Positions 1-8,506 of a DNA stretch of 64,000 nucleotides are shown one piece after another. The number at the start of each line of letters is the position of its first letter. Position 1 is the first letter of the stretch. Below the pieces are notes generated by a model. The model saw only the letters and a program-made list of their open reading frames with translations, was not told the DNA's origin and made no database searches. Made by a program: the position numbers and the translations under genes. Origin of the DNA: Cyanobium sp. Cruz-8D1 (GTDB lineage: Bacteria > Cyanobacteriota > Cyanobacteriia > PCC-6307 > Cyanobiaceae); contig NZ_JAGQCD010000018.1 of NCBI RefSeq assembly GCF_024345975.1, positions 1 to 64,000 on the forward strand. The letters are read 5' to 3'.

Positions 1-527
1 CGGGTCTGGGGATCCACAGGGGATTGGATTGGTTTCGCAGCCCCAAGCTCCCATGGCTCCCTGCCCACCCCATTGACTGAGACCCATTCTGTCGCAAGGG
101 TTCTCAGACTTGTGTCGGGCAGTCAGGGTCTGCGGTTGTTCAGCAACCCAGAGATCATCGGCAAGGCCCCGGAGCCTCTTCAATCCATTACGTTGCGCCA
201 ACCTGGCGTGGTTTAGTCTTTGAACTTGCCTGGGACTTGCTGTGGAGGCGTGGAGGGGACTCATCGTTCCCGGTTGTGATCATGCCGGTGATACCCCCAG
301 CACGCCCATGGTCACGGGCGTGCCAGACCACCTGCTCTCGATGGTTTGGGCTCTCGTCCTCTCCCGCATGGGCGTGGCGGAGCGCCAGACAATCGAGCCA
401 GATCGAAAGCCCACAGCCCACGCCTCCCATGGATAGCAGCGCCAGGAGTTCGGGCCAGGCCGGCTGCGGCTGGGGAGGGCCAGGAGATGCATCGCTCTGA
501 AGCCCCGATGGCCTTGAGCAGGTTGAT
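1..527. other. Left-edge stretch with no gene I can support
   Basis: This is the DNA downstream of the RND pump gene, whose stop codon is at 528-530. Several short open frames cross it on both strands, but none has a convincing ribosome binding site or a protein pattern I recognise. A minus-strand frame contains a histidine-rich stretch, which may be chance. I see no terminator hairpin with a T-run, tRNA or repeat. Confidence 0.4.
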
Positions 528-3500
528 CTAGAGGGGGGCGCGCAGGGCTGGCTCGTGGCGAGGCAGTAACCAGCCGCCGAAGGCGGCATAGAGAGCCGGC
601 AGCACCAGCAGGGTGAGGGTGGTGGAGGTGATCAAGCCTCCGAGCACCACAATCGCCAGCGGTTGCAGGATCTCGTTGCCTGCCCCGAAGGCCAACGCCA
701 GCGGCACCATGCCCAGGGCGGAGGTGAGAGCCGTCATCAGGATCGCGTTGAGGCGCTGCAGGCTGCCGGCGCGGATCACCTGCTTGAGCTCCATGCCTTC
801 GGCGTGGCGGCGGTTGTAGTTGTCCACCAGCAGCAGGCCGTTGCGCACTGCCACCCCGAACAGGGTGATGAACCCAATCAGGGAGGCCACCGAAAGCACA
901 CCGCCGCTGAGCAGGATGGCCACCAGGCCACCGACGAGGGCCAAAGGCAGGTTGATCAGGATGGCGATCGTCGCCGGCAGAGATTTGACGGATACGAACA
1001 TCAACACGGCCATCACCACCGTGGCCAGCAGGCTGTAGAGCACCAGGTTGGAGGTGGCCCGCTCCTCCGACTCGAACTGCCCGCCATAGCGGGTCAGGTA
1101 CCCAGTTGGCAGTTTGATCGTGTTGTTGATGGTGTTCTGGATGTCACCGACGACCGTGCCCAGTGGCCGGCCACTGACGTTGGCAGACACCACGATCAAG
1201 CGGGAGACATCTTCCCGGTTGACCACATTGGCGCCCAGTCCGTTGTCAATCCGGGCAAGGGATCCCAGCGGCAGCATGGTGCCGGCGGGGGTGGCGATCG
1301 GAATAGCCCGTAGGGCATCGAGGCTGTTACGGGATTGCTCTGGCAGCATCACCACCACATCGGTGCGATCGGTGCCGTTGCTCACCACCTGGCCCACCGT
1401 CTTGCCGTTGAGGGCGATCTCCACCGCATCAGCGAGTTGCTGCATCATCAGTCCGTTGGCGGTGGCGGCCTTGCGATCGAAAGCGATCTGCACCTGCTGG
1501 ATGGGCAACTGGGGTTCGAGCTGCAGATCCACGACCCCCTCGATCGGCTCGATCGCGTCACGCACCTGCTCGCCGATCCTGCGCAGTTCGGCCAGGTCGG
1601 GCCCGTAGATCTTGATGGCGATGGCGCTGCGCACACCCGAGAGCACCTCATCCATGCGGTGGGAGATGAAGCCGCCGATGTTGGGTGCCACGCCTGGAAG
1701 GCGAAGAAAGGCTTGGCGGAGTGCGGCGAGGGCGGCAGGGCGATCCTTCATCGCTGCATCACTCAACTCCACATCCACATGGGCCAAGTTGACGCCTGCC
1801 CCATCGGCATCTCCCGGGGCCCGGCCGGTACGAACCTGCACCCACTCAAACAGTGGATTGGCCTTGAGGGTATTGGACAAGGCCAAACCGGCACGGTTGG
1901 TCATCTCCAGCGACACGCCGGGATAAAGCACCATCGAATTCACCAGGGACTTCTCGCGGAACTCCGGCAGGAACACCCGCCCGAGGCTGGGCAGGATGGC
2001 GCAGGCCAGCACCACCATGGCCAGCGCTGCTGCCAGCACCCGTTTGGGGGAGATCAGCACCATCTCCAGCAATGGCCGGTAGGCCCTCTCGACCCAGTTG
2101 GCGATCCAGGTGTTCTCGGCGGGGAGCCGTGTGTTCGCCAGCAGAATCCCGCAGAGCGCTGGCGAGAGGGTGAGTGCCACCAGGGTGGAGGCGGCGATCG
2201 AAAGCAGATAGGCCAGGCCCATCGGCGCGAAGATCCGCCCTTCCACTCCCGTGAGGCTGAAGATCGGCGCGAACACCACCACAATGATGACGGTGGAGAG
2301 AATCACCGGTTGGCGCACCTCCACCGAGGTTTCGTACACCACCTGCAGGGGATTCTTGGGCTGGGCAGCCGCCTGATTGCGGCGCAGTCCGCTGTAGCAG
2401 TTCTCCATGTCGACGATGGAATCGTCGACCACCGAGCCGATCGCCACCACCAGCCCGCCGAGGGTCATGGTGTTGATCTCCAGCCCAAAGGCGCGCATCA
2501 GCATCAGGCCGATCAGCAACGACAGGGGGATGGCGCTGAGGCTGATCACGGCGGTGCGCCAGTTCATCAGGAACAGCAGCATCACCACCGAGACGATCAG
2601 GATCCCTTCGATCAGGGAAGCGCTGACGTTCTTGATCGCCGTTTCAATGAAACTGGCCTGTCGGAAGCTGCGCGTCACCTGGATGTCGCCCGGCAGGGTC
2701 TTGCTGAGGGCAGCGATGCGTTGCTCCACCTCGCGGGTCACCCTGGGGGTGTCGATGTCGGGCTGTTTGTTGATCATCAGCACCACCGCCGGCTGGCCGT
2801 TGAAGCTGCCATCGCCGCGCTTGAGGGCGCTGGCCAGCTGAACTTCGGCGACATCCCCGAGCCGGAGCGATTGGCCTTTGCTGCCTGTCACCACGGAATC
2901 GGCGAGGTCCTCAGGGCTGCTTGCCTGGCCATCGGCGCGGATCAGTTTTTCCTGCCCGCCTGCGATCAGAAAGCCGCCGGGGGCATTGGCGCTGGCGGCA
3001 GCGGCGGCCTCAGCCACGGCTTGCAGCGACACATTGCGGGCCTGAAGTTGCTGGGGATCGATCTGGATCTGCTGCTGGGCTTCTTCACCGCCATAGAGGG
3101 TCACCTGGGAGACACCGGGTACCGCAAGAATCTGGTTGTTGAAGGTGGTGGTAACGATCCGGCGCAGCTCCATCGGCGTGGTCGGGCCGCCGCCCTTCAG
3201 CGTGAAGGCGTACTGCAGGATCGTGCCCAGCGGCGACACCAGCGGCGAGATGGCCGGCGCGCTGGCATTGGCTGGCAGCTCCGCCTCGATCTGCTGCAGG
3301 CGTTCCGCCACCGATTGGCGGGCCCGGTTGATGTCGGCGTTCTGCGCAAACACCACCTGCACCATCGAGAGCCCCACCTTCGAGGAGGAGCGCACGGTTT
3401 CCACTCCCGGCAGTCCGTTGACGGCCGATTCGATCGGCACGGTGATGCGCCGTTCCACCTCTTCCGGTGCCAGGCCATCGGCGGTGGTCTGCACATCCAC

Positions 3501-3650
3501 CTGGGGCGGAGCGAACGGGGGGAACACATCCAGGGGCATGCGGCTCAGGATCGACAGGCCCCACAGGGTGATCAGGAAGGCGGCCACAACCACCAGCCAG
3601 CGCCTGGCAATCGAGGTGCGCAGCGTCTGGTTGAGCAGGCGTTCCAGCAT
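528..3650 (-). CDS. HME-RND heavy-metal efflux transporter (CusA/CzcA/NrsA-like)
   Basis: A 1,040-residue inner-membrane proton/metal antiporter of the heavy-metal RND family, which exports divalent or monovalent metal ions across the envelope. The N-terminal amphipathic start, one membrane helix and a large periplasmic loop beginning around residue 40 (PLDVFPPFAPPQVDVQT) are typical. The transmembrane proton-relay motif GSVVDDSIVDMEN with its paired aspartates is intact, as is the second half with a GVAVRNGLLLVDNYNRR segment. Length matches the family. The partner gene lies just upstream and a two-component system is divergent, an arrangement known from cyanobacterial nickel/cobalt resistance (nrs-type) loci. 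The metal cannot be read from sequence alone. No outer-membrane factor gene is adjacent. Confidence 0.93.
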   Translation of the reverse strand: MLERLLNQTLRTSIARRWLVVVAAFLITLWGLSILSRMPLDVFPPFAPPQVDVQTTADGLAPEEVERRITVPIESAVNGLPGVETVRSSSKVGLSMVQVVFAQNADINRARQSVAERLQQIEAELPANASAPAISPLVSPLGTILQYAFTLKGGGPTTPMELRRIVTTTFNNQILAVPGVSQVTLYGGEEAQQQIQIDPQQLQARNVSLQAVAEAAAAASANAPGGFLIAGGQEKLIRADGQASSPEDLADSVVTGSKGQSLRLGDVAEVQLASALKRGDGSFNGQPAVVLMINKQPDIDTPRVTREVEQRIAALSKTLPGDIQVTRSFRQASFIETAIKNVSASLIEGILIVSVVMLLFLMNWRTAVISLSAIPLSLLIGLMLMRAFGLEINTMTLGGLVVAIGSVVDDSIVDMENCYSGLRRNQAAAQPKNPLQVVYETSVEVRQPVILSTVIIVVVFAPIFSLTGVEGRIFAPMGLAYLLSIAASTLVALTLSPALCGILLANTRLPAENTWIANWVERAYRPLLEMVLISPKRVLAAALAMVVLACAILPSLGRVFLPEFREKSLVNSMVLYPGVSLEMTNRAGLALSNTLKANPLFEWVQVRTGRAPGDADGAGVNLAHVDVELSDAAMKDRPAALAALRQAFLRLPGVAPNIGGFISHRMDEVLSGVRSAIAIKIYGPDLAELRRIGEQVRDAIEPIEGVVDLQLEPQLPIQQVQIAFDRKAATANGLMMQQLADAVEIALNGKTVGQVVSNGTDRTDVVVMLPEQSRNSLDALRAIPIATPAGTMLPLGSLARIDNGLGANVVNREDVSRLIVVSANVSGRPLGTVVGDIQNTINNTIKLPTGYLTRYGGQFESEERATSNLVLYSLLATVVMAVLMFVSVKSLPATIAILINLPLALVGGLVAILLSGGVLSVASLIGFITLFGVAVRNGLLLVDNYNRRHAEGMELKQVIRAGSLQRLNAILMTALTSALGMVPLALAFGAGNEILQPLAIVVLGGLITSTTLTLLVLPALYAAFGGWLLPRHEPALRAPL

Positions 3651-3694
3651 GGGAATGGGTTGGGGGGTGCGGGAGAGCGCGAAGGGCGCGGAGG

Positions 3695-4276
3695 TCAGGT
3701 TTTCTTTCCCAAGCGAGAGACCACGACCACACCGCCCACCACCACCACCGCAGCACCGGCCCCGATCACCAGGGGGTTGAGGCCTGCGGCGGCCGAGGGG
3801 GTGGCAGCAGCGGCTGGAGTGGCTGGGGCATCAGAAGCAGCGGCGGGGGTTTCCCCACTGGCGGCCACAGCGCTTTGGCTCTTCTTCGATTCGGCGTAGA
3901 GCGAGAGGGCCCCCTGGGTCACCACGTTGTCTCCCGGCGAGATGCTGCCGTCGGTGATTTCGATCTGATCGCCCTTGGTGGCGCCGGTCTGGAGGAACAC
4001 CGGGTCGTAGGTGGTGCCGCTTTTCACGAAGGCCAGGGGCTTGCCATCCGCCTGCACCACCGCAGCGACCGGAATCGAAATCACACCGCCGACTTCCGTG
4101 GCAGGGGCGGTGGTGATACCCAGCATGGAATCGATCTCGGCGCTGGCCTTCACCTGGCGCACATTCCCCTGCGGCTGAAACTCGTCGCCATGGCCCACAT
4201 GGGCCAGGGCCGGACTGAGGCTGCCGAGGCCCAGGGTGGCGAGGCTGAGGCCGCCGGCCAGAAGAAGAGCGCGCAT
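3695..4276 (-). CDS. Short periplasmic adaptor-like protein with C-terminal membrane anchor
   Basis: About 193 residues, placed 44 bp upstream of the RND pump on the same strand. It has an N-terminal signal peptide ending near SPALA, then HVGHGDEF, a metal-adaptor-like opening seen in cyanobacterial cation efflux proteins. A segment follows (IPVAAVVQADGKPLAFVKSG through SPGDNVVTQGALSLY) that resembles the membrane-proximal beta domain of HlyD/CusB membrane-fusion proteins. The tail is an Ala/Pro linker, then a hydrophobic helix (LVIGAGAAVVVVGGVVVV) and a basic end. The coiled-coil hairpin and lipoyl domains of a normal adaptor (usually near 400 residues) are missing. I chose ATG at 4276 because it begins the signal peptide directly; an in-frame ATG at 4303 is also possible. 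Likely role: partner of the pump. Confidence 0.75.
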   Translation of the reverse strand: MRALLLAGGLSLATLGLGSLSPALAHVGHGDEFQPQGNVRQVKASAEIDSMLGITTAPATEVGGVISIPVAAVVQADGKPLAFVKSGTTYDPVFLQTGATKGDQIEITDGSISPGDNVVTQGALSLYAESKKSQSAVAASGETPAAASDAPATPAAAATPSAAAGLNPLVIGAGAAVVVVGGVVVVSRLGKKT

Positions 4277-4398
4277 GCTGCGGCTGCCGCAAGGGCAGGA
4301 CAAGGTCCCGCAGAGGATGCCGCAAAGGGGATGAAAAACAGGTGAAACCGCTTGCGCTGACTAGGATCAGCCGCAGTCTCTTTCTCCTGACCCAGGCC
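4277..4398. promoter_or_regulatory. Divergent control region between efflux genes and two-component system
   Basis: This 122-bp gap separates the divergent starts of the adaptor-like gene and the response regulator, so it must carry both promoters. The octamer TGCCGCAA occurs directly repeated at 4285-4292 and 4318-4325, 33 bp apart (about three helical turns), the spacing expected for tandem OmpR-family binding half-sites. A TAGGAT at 4361-4366 could be a -10 element for the regulator. Operator assignment is inference. Confidence 0.35.
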
Positions 4399-5097
4399 AT
4401 GCCCCTGCGCATCCTGTTGGTGGAGGACGAAGCGGAGCTGGCCGGCGCGATCCAGGCGGTGCTCAGGGCACAGCAGCACATCGTGGATCACGTGGCGGAG
4501 GGCCTGGGGGCCTGGAGCCTGATCCGCAGCGAGCTGGCCACCTACAACCTGGTGATCGTCGATTGGATGCTGCCGGGTCTTTCAGGCCCGGAGCTCTGCC
4601 GGCGGCTGCGCGGGGCCGGCCTGACCCTGCCGGTGCTGATGCTCACGGCCCTGGCCGACACCAGCCACCGGGTGCAGGGCCTGGATGCCGGCGCCGACGA
4701 CTACCTGAGCAAGCCGTTCGCGATGGAGGAATTGCTGGCGAGGATCCGGGCGCTGCAGCGGCGCCAGCCCAGCTACCGCGAGCTCCTGCTCAGAGCCGGT
4801 CCCTATCTCCTGGATCCAGCGGAGCGTTGCCTCACCGTTCAGGAGGCGGTGGGGAGCACCAGGATCGTGCTGTCCGCCAAGGAATTGCAGCTGATGGCCT
4901 ATTTCATGGAGCATCCGCGGGAGATCATCCCAGGGGCGCGGTTGCGGTCCCAGCTCTGGTCGTTGGATGCGGACCCGATCAGCAATGTGGTGGCGGCCCA
5001 GGTGCGGCTGTTGCGCCGCAAGCTCGCCAGCCATGGGCTGCCCTCTCCAATCGAGACGGTGGCCTCGAAGGGCTATCGCTTCGAGCCGGAGCCCTAG
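4399..5097 (+). CDS. OmpR/PhoB-family response regulator (metal-efflux regulator, NrsR/RppA-like)
   Basis: A 232-residue two-component regulator. The receiver domain has the acidic pair in LLVEDE (residues 7-12), the phospho-acceptor Asp near residue 55 in VIVDWMLPGLSG, and the conserved Lys near 105 in YLSKPF. The C-terminal winged-helix DNA-binding domain ends in ASKGYRFEPEP. ATG at 4399 was chosen over an in-frame ATG at 4342 because MPLRILLVEDE is the normal receiver start. The kinase gene follows after 10 bp, so the two are probably co-transcribed. Divergence from the RND pump suggests it controls that pump in response to metal; the inducing metal is not shown. Confidence 0.92.
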   Translation: MPLRILLVEDEAELAGAIQAVLRAQQHIVDHVAEGLGAWSLIRSELATYNLVIVDWMLPGLSGPELCRRLRGAGLTLPVLMLTALADTSHRVQGLDAGADDYLSKPFAMEELLARIRALQRRQPSYRELLLRAGPYLLDPAERCLTVQEAVGSTRIVLSAKELQLMAYFMEHPREIIPGARLRSQLWSLDADPISNVVAAQVRLLRRKLASHGLPSPIETVASKGYRFEPEP

Positions 5098-5107
5098 GGA
5101 CGCGCCC

Positions 5108-6472
5108 ATGGTGTGGCCTGGTCCCATTCCCCGCAGCCGCCTGCGGCTGGCAGCGGCCTATCTGGTGGTGATCGGCTTGATTCTCTACGGCGCCGGCTAT
5201 GGACTGTTTGGCCTGTTGATGCGCTCGACCTGGTCGGCCCTCGAGAGCGAGGTGGAAACACTGGCCGGCACCTTGCACGACAGCCTCAAGCCCCTGCTGC
5301 CGGAAGAAGCCAGTCCCTCTGCCCAGCTCGCCGCCGTGCTCCCCGGGCTCTGCCTGGTGGAGCAGTCCTGCCCGAAGCTCTCCACGCTGCTGCCGCGTCA
5401 TGCCGTCAGCATCACGGATTCGGAGCGCTTCTATCTGCGTCTGCTGGATCGACGTGGCGCTTTGATCGCCCACTCCCCTGGATCTCCCAAAGCCGGAGCT
5501 CAGGATCCGAACCTGACCTGGATGGTGGTGGCAGGCCAGGGAGGCGAGCGCTTCCTGCAGTATTCGATCCACCTGCACCGTTCCCACGCGCCAGTGCAGG
5601 CAGGCGCGGCACCGACGGAGCTGGATTGGGGCTATCTGCAAATCGGGCGCAGCTTGCGCGGGCTGGACGCGGAAAGGGAACGGCTGTGGTGGGCCACCCA
5701 GACGATCGTGATGCTGGCCCTGGTTGTGGCAGGCCTGGCCAGCTGGTGGTTGTCCGGCCTGGCGATGCGGCCGCTGCTGGCGGCCTATCGGCAGCAAGAG
5801 CAGTTCACCGCCGATGCGGCCCATGAACTTCGCGCCCCTGTGGCCAACCTGCTGGCCGTGGTGGAGGCCCACAGAATGCAACAGCCTGCTGACCCCATCG
5901 CCAGGGACCAGATGCTGGCGGCTCTCCATGGGCAGGGGAAACGGCTCAGCGGCCTGATCACCGACCTGCTGCTGCTCACCCGGCTTGAGGGATCTGAGGC
6001 TGCTGCTGCAAGGGAGCTGTGCTCCTTGCCGCAGATCGCGCGCGACCTGATGGAAGAGACCAGTGAGGCGGCGGCGGCGGCAGGGCTGAAGCTGAGGCTG
6101 GTGGGTGGCGAGGATGATCTCGTCGTGTTGGGGGTTGAATCGGAGCTCTATCAGCTCGTGTCCAACCTGCTGCTGAACGCGATTCAGTACACGCCGCCGG
6201 GAGGGCAGGTGGTGCTGAGCCTAGAGCGAGAGAGAGGCCAGGCGGTGCTGCAGGTGCGGGACAGTGGCATCGGCATCACAACGGCCGATCAGCAACACAT
6301 CTTTGATCGTTTCTTCCGCAGTGATCCAGGCCGTTCCCGTCGCCAGGGCGGCACCGGCCTGGGGCTCTCCATCGTGGCGGCGATCATGCATCGCCATCGC
6401 GGAGAGATCTCCGTGGCTTCCAAGCCGGGTTCGGGGAGTGTCTTTATCGTGAAACTGCCCCTGGCTGGTTGA
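5108..6472 (+). CDS. Sensor histidine kinase (NrsS/RppB-like)
   Basis: A 454-residue membrane sensor kinase, partner of the regulator just upstream. A first membrane helix lies around residues 15-37, a periplasmic sensing loop of about 150 residues follows, and a second helix (IVMLALVVAGLASWWLSGLA) leads into the kinase core. The phosphorylated His is in FTADAAHELRAPVANLL. The ATP-binding domain shows the N box LVSNLLLNAIQYTP, the G1 box DSGIGI and the G2 box GGTGLGLSIV. The ATG at 5108 is preferred; an upstream frame beginning at 4967 lies inside the regulator gene. The periplasmic loop probably senses the metal exported by the divergent RND pump (inference). Confidence 0.9.
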   Translation: MVWPGPIPRSRLRLAAAYLVVIGLILYGAGYGLFGLLMRSTWSALESEVETLAGTLHDSLKPLLPEEASPSAQLAAVLPGLCLVEQSCPKLSTLLPRHAVSITDSERFYLRLLDRRGALIAHSPGSPKAGAQDPNLTWMVVAGQGGERFLQYSIHLHRSHAPVQAGAAPTELDWGYLQIGRSLRGLDAERERLWWATQTIVMLALVVAGLASWWLSGLAMRPLLAAYRQQEQFTADAAHELRAPVANLLAVVEAHRMQQPADPIARDQMLAALHGQGKRLSGLITDLLLLTRLEGSEAAAARELCSLPQIARDLMEETSEAAAAAGLKLRLVGGEDDLVVLGVESELYQLVSNLLLNAIQYTPPGGQVVLSLERERGQAVLQVRDSGIGITTADQQHIFDRFFRSDPGRSRRQGGTGLGLSIVAAIMHRHRGEISVASKPGSGSVFIVKLPLAG

Positions 6473-6806: not shown

Positions 6807-7115
6807 TCAAGTCACCCTCGCTTCACTTCTCACACTGGCGCTCAATTTCAGTCCAAGGGCCGAGACGACCTTCAAGATGGTGTCCAAGCTAGGACTGCGC
6901 TCTCCAGACAAGGCCTTGTAGAGGCTCTCCCTGGAAAGTCCTGAGTCTCTGGCCACCTGGGTCATCCCCTGGGCTCGTGCAATGTCGCCCAGGGCCTTGG
7001 CAATGAAGGAAGCATCGCCATCCGCCTCCTCGATGCAGGCTTCCAGGTAAGCCGCCATCTCCTACGGTGTGCGTAGATGCTCGGCAACCTCGTAGGGGGT
7101 GGTCGTGGTTTTCAT
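6807..7115 (-). pseudogene. HigA-like antitoxin (XRE/HTH addiction antidote family), interrupted by an amber codon
   Basis: The full frame begins at ATG 7115 after a strong GGAGGAGA ribosome site and reads MKTTTTPYEVAEHLRTP, then TAG at 7062-7064, then EMAAYLEACIEEADGDASFI and onward to the normal C-terminus. The helix-turn-helix region is TQVARDSGLSRESLYKAL. Homologues of this antidote family read straight through with a Glu at the stop position, so a single GAG-to-TAG change explains it. An 83-residue product from the internal ATG at 7058 would still contain the HTH domain, so partial function by re-initiation is possible. It follows the toxin remnant with a TGATG overlap, the usual toxin-first order of this type II system. 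Confidence 0.85.
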
Positions 7116-7537: not shown

Positions 7538-8419
7538 TCAGTCGGCGGGGCTGCAGACGCCCAGTGGGCCGCGGTTGAGCACATGGGTATCGATCATTGT
7601 GGTGCTCACATCGCGGTGCCCCAGGAGCTCCTGGATGGTGCGGATGTCTTGGCCGCCCTCAAGCAGGTGGGTGGCAAACGAATGGCGGAACGTATGGCAA
7701 CTGGCTGCCTTACTCACGCCGGCAGCGGTCATGGCCTGCTTGACGGCCTTCTGCACCACCGTCGGGTCCAGCTGATGCCGTCCTTCCTGTCCTGAGGCGG
7801 GATCCCGCCATCGGCGCGCCTGTGGGAACACCCACTGCCAAGCCTATTCCCGATCGGCTTTCGGGTACTTCCTTGCCAGTGCTCCGGGCCGCATTACCTG
7901 CCCCCGGCCGGCCTCCAGGTCCAAGCGATGCCGCCTGCGCGCCTGATCAAGATGGAGTCGCAGTGCCTGGATCTGGCTCTGGGGCACCAGCGTGAGTCGA
8001 TCCTTGCCGCCCTATCCATCTCGAACCAGCCATTGGCGCCGCTCGAAGTCCAGATCCTTCACGCGCAGCCGTAAGGCTTCCATGAGGCGAAGCCCGCTGC
8101 CGTAGAGCAACCCCACCACCAGGCCTGGAGTCCCCTCCAGCTCCATGTCCTTGTCCAGCAACTCGCGGTACAGGAAGAGCAGCGCAGCGAGGGCCTGGTT
8201 CTGCGTCGAGGCGCTCACCTGCCCCTCCACTGCCAGGTGGGTGAGAAACGCCTCCACTTCCGCCGAGCCCATCGTCCCCGGGTGGCGCAGGCCGTGGAGG
8301 CGCAAGAACCGCCTCAGCCAATGCACATGGCTCTTCACGGTGCGTCGGGTGTAATGGCGCAGCTGCAGTTCCTCCCGGTAGCGCTGCAGCAGGCCAGGGG
8401 GGCGGACGTTGCTGGCCAT
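7538..8419 (-). pseudogene. intI: Integron-type integrase (IntI-family tyrosine recombinase), multiply broken
   Basis: One continuous minus-strand frame from ATG 8419 ([20 protein letters not shown]) to 7538 would encode 293 residues. It is interrupted by TAG at 8012-8014, where homologues read VRDGKGGKDR, and by TAG at 7844-7846, where homologues read ADREWAWQ. Recombinase boxes are visible: [20 protein letters not shown] with the box I Arg, and [20 protein letters not shown] with His and Arg. The catalytic Tyr near the C-terminus is replaced by Asp ([11 protein letters not shown]; codon at 7589-7591). Near 8143 LLDKDM joins directly to ELEGTPGL, suggesting loss of about 30 residues. Typical integron integrases exceed 310 residues. 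It is inactive. I saw no attI/attC array beside it. Confidence 0.88.
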
Positions 8420-8506
8420 GGGCTGGCAGGCGAGGGCATGGCCCCAGAATTCCCTGACCGGGCCCCCCCGTTCCCTTCCCATGTGTCCCCGACGCCTCTG
8501 TCGCCC

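Follow-up and report, generated by a model that had tools for sequence, protein, structure and literature searches.

Results

A short adaptor gene stands beside a heavy-metal RND pump

The window, i.e. the whole stretch of DNA that was analysed, comprises 64,000 nucleotides from Cyanobium sp. Cruz-8D1, and its position 1 is base 1 of contig NZ_JAGQCD010000018.1 (C19). As listed in Table 1, this end of the contig carries an RND pump gene preceded by a small adaptor-like gene, and a pair of regulatory genes that is transcribed in the opposite direction. The pump exceeds the cut-off of TIGR00914, the model for heavy-metal RND pumps of the CusA/CzcA type (779 bits versus 701.45). In a preliminary description of this DNA, a short adaptor-like gene of about 193 residues had been placed beside a pump of 1,040 residues, and this was confirmed, with an open reading frame of 193 amino acids that ends 44 bp upstream of the start of the pump gene. 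The distance between the adaptor gene and the divergent regulator gene is 122 bp, which leaves no room for a hidden full adaptor upstream, so that a full-length adaptor in another frame, considered at the time, is not present. At the other end, the pieces of an EamA transporter gene abut the end of the pump gene almost directly, and beyond them the contig stops.

Table 1. Features of the locus, with positions in the window
Feature	Position	Strand	Basis or remark
Short NrsB-type adaptor, 193 aa, whole gene	3695..4276	-	
Signal peptide, residues 1-25, ALA end ahead of His26	4202..4276	-	Cleavage site inferred, AxA rule
HVGHGDEF, predicted mature N-terminus, candidate metal site	4178..4201	-	Motif in 104/104 short forms
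Membrane-proximal domain (MPD), residues 40-135	3872..4159	-	AlphaFold2 model, fold matches
C-terminal hydrophobic helix, residues 175-189, then basic tail	3710..3754	-	
NrsA-type CusA/CzcA heavy-metal RND pump, 1,040 aa	528..3650	-	TIGR00914
RppA (NrsR) response regulator	4399..5097	+	NF041734 equivalog, 310.4 bits, cut-off 250
RppB (NrsS) sensor kinase	5108..6472	+	NF041735 equivalog, 470.5 bits, cut-off 400
EamA transporter gene remnant	356..548	-	Intact right after nrsA in L079, L080, L090
Direct repeat TTCACCTGTTTTTCAT (nrsB strand), candidate RppA/NrsR operator	4331..4346	.	

The short protein is laid out as a signal peptide, a histidine motif, a single MPD and, behind a linker, a hydrophobic helix at the C-terminus. 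Against TIGR00999, the CzcB-type adaptor model, it scored 27.8 bits with a cut-off of 319.3, and the match was confined to model positions 209-268 of 271. The cut-off is of no use here for telling short and long forms apart, as two long cyanobacterial forms also remained below it, with 152.5 and 122.7 bits. A Pfam search with the short adaptor gave no match at E≤1. Both barrel-sandwich/lipoyl Pfam models, HlyD_D23 and HlyD_3, match the long adaptor of another cyanobacterial locus (L062), and neither matched any of 16 short relatives at E≤0.1; CusB_dom_1 gave weak matches in two of these 16 (best E 0.0088). The hairpin, lipoyl and barrel parts are missing from the 193-residue adaptor, and on its own it cannot bridge to the outer membrane.

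The predicted fold is that of an adaptor membrane-proximal domain

The short adaptor was modelled with AlphaFold2 using 16 family members. Block-mean pLDDT values were 90-96 across residues 41-130, and both ends of the protein (signal peptide and N-terminal motif, linker and C-terminal helix) were modelled with low confidence. The best Foldseek match of the domain was the SilB MPD construct 5a4g (E 2e-4), and structural matches were found with the MPD of CusB (3ne5; Z 12.8, 95 residues, rmsd 2.0), the MPD of ZneB (Z 11.1, 88 residues, rmsd 2.4) and BesA (Z 9.8). The aligned range in the CusB chain, 80 to 396, reaches near both ends of CusB, which fits a fusion of two halves of a split domain into one. 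Structure prediction of the adaptor by itself thus showed an adaptor MPD, with residues 41-130 confidently modelled, and not the unrelated fold that would have refuted the preliminary description. The model, the fold matches, and the profile and Pfam searches also bear out the anatomy given there, with an MPD and a C-terminal helix present and the coiled-coil hairpin and lipoyl domains absent.

The locus very probably represents the nrs nickel resistance system

The nrsRS-nrsBACD genes constitute the nickel resistance system of Synechocystis, whose role is known (PMC4284471, accessible part), and RppA (sll0797) is NrsR, the regulator of nrsBACD in this organism (PMC4284471 and PMC13421787, accessible parts). 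Plasmid pSYLC of Synechocystis PCC 6714 carries, in this order, rppB-rppA, a gene for a short protein, a CzcA pump gene, a glycoside hydrolase gene and an MFS gene, with two small genes between rppA and nrsB. Since this is the order of nrsRS-nrsBACD, as far as the accessible text describes that system, the adaptor of the window is very probably the NrsB of the known nickel system. The order in the window, with nrsRS divergent from nrsBA, matches the nrs system, which likewise has a divergent RppA/RppB pair and an adaptor gene followed by a CzcA-type pump gene; nrsC and nrsD were not seen in the window, where the EamA remnant is found instead, followed by the end of the contig. With PCC 6714 standing in for PCC 6803 (Slr0793), there is little doubt that the 193-residue protein is an NrsB-type adaptor, and the locus is very probably an nrsRS-nrsBA module for resistance to nickel (divalent metal), i.e. 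a known operon.

Pseudanabaena ABRG5-3 has a gene order like that of PCC 6714, with a long adaptor gene further on. Chondrocystis NIES-4102 has two short ORFs whose annotation is that of nickel and cobalt tolerance proteins, with the gene name nrsB for one of them. This locus (L160, 8926-10036) has two tandem short nrsB-like ORFs ahead of one pump, and one L160 row is without the C-terminal hydrophobic stretch. Database names of the reduced adaptor include 'cobalt transporter', 'hypothetical protein' and 'efflux RND transporter periplasmic adaptor subunit', and no description of it was found in the literature searched, a search that did not extend to the original nrs papers (2000 J Bacteriol).

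The region upstream of nrsB contains a repeat of the form TTCA[CT] N5-7 TTCA[CT] in 77 of 77 intergenic rows compared to 6 of 1540 shuffled copies, for a pattern that was chosen after seeing the window's own copy. It resembles the CopR box, which is TTCAT N4-5 TTCAT in the accessible part of PMC4182526. The published RppA motif AAMAWCTCYYWCCCC (PMC13421787, accessible part) is absent from the intergenic region, and with up to three mismatches it occurs 16 times in the window, versus 16.3 expected.

The short form is conserved among cyanobacteria

We collected 104 short forms, consisting of 79 of the 80 named loci (L079-L158) and 25 others, which are 19 from L052-L071, five from L159-L162 and the window itself. 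They amount to 97 distinct mature sequences, and most of the seven identical pairs come from a single genome that is listed twice under different names. Out of 109 relatives obtained in the named-genome scan, 80 loci were kept, and their record titles were cyanobacterial except for one metagenome-assembled genome (MAG) titled Bifidobacterium breve. The pump in this record (L083, CALPNT020000190.1) is 92% identical to that of the window, so that the bin is probably mislabelled or contaminated. Eight plasmid records contained matches of the short type that continue from residue 26 onwards, with E values of 8e-24 or better. In a protein search of 291 genomes of the class, 136 matched at E≤1e-3. 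Based on our own reading of the rows listed, taking a short frame with an N-terminal match, the short form occurs in 43 of these 291 genomes; in the majority of the remaining rows listed, the match is to the C-terminal domain of a longer frame, of about 440-670 residues. Six high-GC loci (L080, L081, L082, L085, L093 and L095) gave no nrsB with the ORF caller, and the counts therefore rest on tblastn positions. The one named locus that was dropped, L095 from Synechococcus CS-1328, has a match that begins only at residue 63, beyond the limit of residue 30 set by the filter. Here (2974-5761), hardly any DNA separates the kinase gene from the second half of nrsB, and there is no match to the regulator; the locus is rearranged or deleted.

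All 104 short forms contain the motif H-x-G-H-G-D-[EA]-F directly after a signal-peptidase-like tripeptide, which has Ala or Ser at position -1 in every case, and Phe at -3 in one. The scan for the named loci used the peptide patterns H[VS]GHGDEF and G[SA]LSLYAES, so that the motif counts in these 80 loci are partly built in. Among loci found without a motif search, the motif was present in 29 of 29 (L010-L038, from the protein search) and in all 25 of the others mentioned above. A C-terminal hydrophobic stretch (window value >1.6) was found in 100 of the 102 closed ORFs. The dN/dS ratio of the mature protein against nine relatives ranged from 0.13 to 0.34, and that of the linker and anchor went up to 0.59 (against L088). 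The short adaptor is under purifying selection and belongs to a conserved family of short forms rather than being an oddity of one genome. In 36 of the 102 closed short forms, e.g. those of L060 and L066, the linker or tail after the MPD contains an H-[SNGD]-H motif, unlike the adaptor of the window, which has no histidine in these parts.

The gene neighbourhood is conserved as well. A CusA/CzcA-type pump gene lies directly downstream of the short adaptor gene in all 96 loci that extend for at least 1.5 kb beyond it, and a divergent RppA-like regulator gene was found at 89 of 102 short loci (67/77 named and 22/25 others), where absence means that nothing over 45% identity occurs within 5.5 kb upstream.

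The short form resembles a long adaptor without its middle part

A profile of the short form, 112 positions long, was compared with long cyanobacterial adaptors. There were 26 long rows, and the 24 with over 400 residues were profiled; L125, which is cut by the locus end, and the mis-framed L186 were dropped, and L189 missed the 150-bit threshold of the script. The 24 include two repeats, since L161 equals L062 and L120 is a cut L063. The short profile matched all 24 in two pieces that lie about 260-390 residues apart. The C-terminal piece had i-E values of 2e-14 or better throughout, and the N-terminal piece had values of 0.003 or better in 21 of the 24, and of 0.08, 0.2 and 0.5 in L183, L070 and the cut L120, respectively. 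In the L062 adaptor (2311-3867, 518 aa), the stretch that is not shared with the short form lies between residues 69 and 386 of the open frame, and the Pfam barrel-sandwich domain PF16576 covers residues 74-371, which is about the same stretch. In view of this two-piece match, the short form looks like a long adaptor from which the middle has been excised, and judged by sequence its plan resembles that of a CzcB-type adaptor with an internal deletion. The two kinds of adaptor share the MPD halves and, in 18 of the 26 long rows, a start with the motif H-x-G-H-G-[DN]-E-F, which in the rows printed directly follows a signal-peptide-like stretch; the motif is therefore not special to the channel-less form. 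They differ in the 260-390 residue middle, which only the long adaptors have, and in the pumps with which they are paired.

For the pumps, 86 short-paired and 19 long-paired rows were thinned to a tree of 59, in which the 43 short-paired and 16 long-paired pumps are separated by a single branch with an SH-aLRT support of 100. The tree was midpoint-rooted and so does not give the order of the short and long states. Direction aside, the pairing of short adaptor and pump looks like one old split.

Full-length adaptors and outer-membrane channels

By the references used, 52 of the 65 short loci with 6 kb on each side contain neither a full adaptor nor an outer-membrane factor (OMF), with 37/41 for the named and 15/24 for the other loci. 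The remaining 13 comprise seven loci in which a HlyD-type adaptor follows the pump and six with a long adaptor at another place in the locus. Considering all 104 loci, a full-length HlyD/CzcB-like adaptor directly follows nrsA in nine (L052, L053, L055, L056, L057, L086, L089, L097 and L116), and the two of these post-pump adaptors that were scanned are over the TIGR01730 cut-off. L089, from Synechococcus SynAce01, is the only one of the nine with an OMF in addition to the full adaptor. These post-pump adaptors, together with the six long adaptors elsewhere in the locus, indicate that bridged versions may exist in relatives. An OMF was found at 1 of the 65 short loci compared to 5 of 20 long-adaptor loci of 8-11 kb each (Fisher p 0.0024, which is only a guide as the rows are related).

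The Cyanobium genome encodes four RND pumps, one on C19, two on C47, one of which matched as two pieces of one frame, and one on C32. Five adaptors are over the TIGR01730 cut-off, on C43, C94, C47, C30 and C54; the C47 adaptor sits between the two pumps, and the one on C54 is of the DevB type. ORFs picked beside the C43 adaptor and the C32 pump gave no transporter match and are probably shadow ORFs. Five OMF frames are present, on C1, C76, C13, C32 and C98. On C19 itself, which starts 527 bp past the pump stop, we found no bridging adaptor or OMF, in agreement with the earlier statement that no outer-membrane factor lies beside the pump.

When the genome was searched with the short protein, only the protein itself and one match with an E value of 0.43 were obtained, with all 31 candidates scored. 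With the long L062 adaptor as query, the best match was the domain of the short gene (50.4 bits), and generic adaptors gave at most 42 bits; two control genomes scored 1090 and 472 bits with this query. The post-pump adaptor of the nine relatives matched nothing at E≤1e-3, and in the control genomes G132 and G255 it gave 785 and 477 bits. TIGR00999 found nothing over its cut-off, neither here nor in 14 control genomes. A CzcB-type full adaptor elsewhere in the genome was thus not found with the short, long and post-pump adaptor queries. Generic full adaptors, five in number next to five OMF frames, are encoded elsewhere in the genome. As a whole, the preliminary description was right on anatomy, to which the nrs identity, the histidine motif of the mature N-terminus, the excision and the full adaptor behind the pump in 9 of 104 loci have since been added. 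Its interpretation is supported in part, and either of the two routes that it offered, export to the periplasm or an adaptor from elsewhere, may apply.

Discussion

The following mechanism is proposed as the most likely one on the basis of the predicted fold and the sequence comparisons. NrsB would have retained the N-terminal histidine motif, which would be bared by removal of the signal peptide, and would have the two MPD halves fused into one domain, with the C-terminal membrane anchor tethering the protein through a flexible linker. The MPD would dock on the periplasmic face of NrsA, where the MPD of CusB sits on CusA, and the N-terminus would capture a metal ion and then either pass it to the pump or switch the pump on, a role that is also ascribed to the N-terminus of CusB. 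Since NrsB alone is unable to reach an outer-membrane channel, NrsA would either move the metal from the cytoplasm or the inner-membrane face into the periplasm, or borrow a channel encoded elsewhere. For this genome, release into the periplasm is favoured over a borrowed channel. We consider it an evenly balanced proposition that NrsB is a docking and metal-loading subunit without a dedicated channel. More tentatively, and with somewhat less confidence, the short-paired pumps might form an old branch of cyanobacterial heavy-metal RND pumps with a single origin, which would work without a trans-envelope conduit, with an adaptor reduced to a docking domain tethered to the membrane and an exposed N-terminal His-x-x-His motif that loads or switches the pump.

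It has long been argued whether heavy-metal RND pumps take their ions from the cytoplasm or only from the periplasm, and whether adaptors have roles beyond forming the channel. If the conduit-free reading is true, the pump would be a cytoplasm-to-periplasm exporter, and the metal-loading role of the adaptor would be separated from its pipe-forming role. A natural pair of pump and adaptor that lacks the channel parts, and that is conserved and under selection, makes both questions testable in a transformable cyanobacterium.

A less probable, though serious, alternative is that NrsB is an accessory protein, with a role limited to occupying part of the docking sites or to tuning the pump, and that a trans-envelope pump is completed by a generic full-length adaptor and a TolC-like channel whose genes lie elsewhere, or right after nrsA in relatives. 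The nine loci with a full-length adaptor right after nrsA, including L089 with its OMF, are consistent with this, and so are the five generic adaptors and five OMF frames in the genome itself. Against it argue the 52 of 65 loci without full adaptor or OMF, and the fact that the post-pump adaptor has no counterpart in this genome at E≤1e-3, yet was detected in both control genomes. Moreover, the close relatives L079, L080, L088 and L090 show no full adaptor in the 5.6-5.9 kb downstream of the pump.

NrsB could also be a membrane-tethered periplasmic metal binder that feeds RppB or buffers metal, and is no pump subunit. The conservation of the N-terminal histidine motif would fit such a role, as would the divergent RppA/RppB pair in most loci. 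This seems unlikely, since the fold is that of a pump-docking domain and the strict partner is the pump (96/96), whereas no upstream RppA-like gene was detected at 13 of 102 loci; in addition, the 43 short-paired pumps all fall on one side of the branch in the pump tree. Decay or mis-assembly of a full adaptor is hardly credible as the origin of the short ORF. A deletion would indeed leave such a two-piece match to long adaptors, but 104 short forms, 97 of them distinct, share one motif and an almost invariable anchor (100/102), and evolve at dN/dS ratios of 0.13-0.34, which rules out decay or an assembly error.

In comparison with characterized systems, NrsB shares with CusB, the partner of CusA, and with SilB the fold of the MPD and an N-terminal segment ahead of it, and in CusB this segment handles metal (PMC6235853, accessible part). 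NrsB differs from both in having no hairpin, lipoyl and barrel domains, a His instead of a Met motif, and a C-terminal membrane anchor. The SilB NMR construct 5a4g, which by its title contains the N-terminal metal site and the MPD, is in effect the plan of NrsB made by hand. BesA of Borrelia is an RND adaptor without a hairpin (PMC4446572, accessible part) and in this respect resembles NrsB, and it also matches the MPD structurally; NrsB is without the lipoyl and barrel parts as well, and the solved BesA chains have 262-275 residues.

Other genes near the locus

Beyond the nrs genes, the window contains a gene for an addiction-module antidote of the HI1420 type (6807-7058, minus strand), which is over the cut-off of TIGR02684. 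At 7538-8440 on the minus strand lies a broken gene of the integron-integrase type, with an N-terminal part (8012-8440) and a C-terminal part (7538-7828) that match TIGR02249 from position 1 and at positions 218-313, respectively, each below the cut-off for the whole protein.
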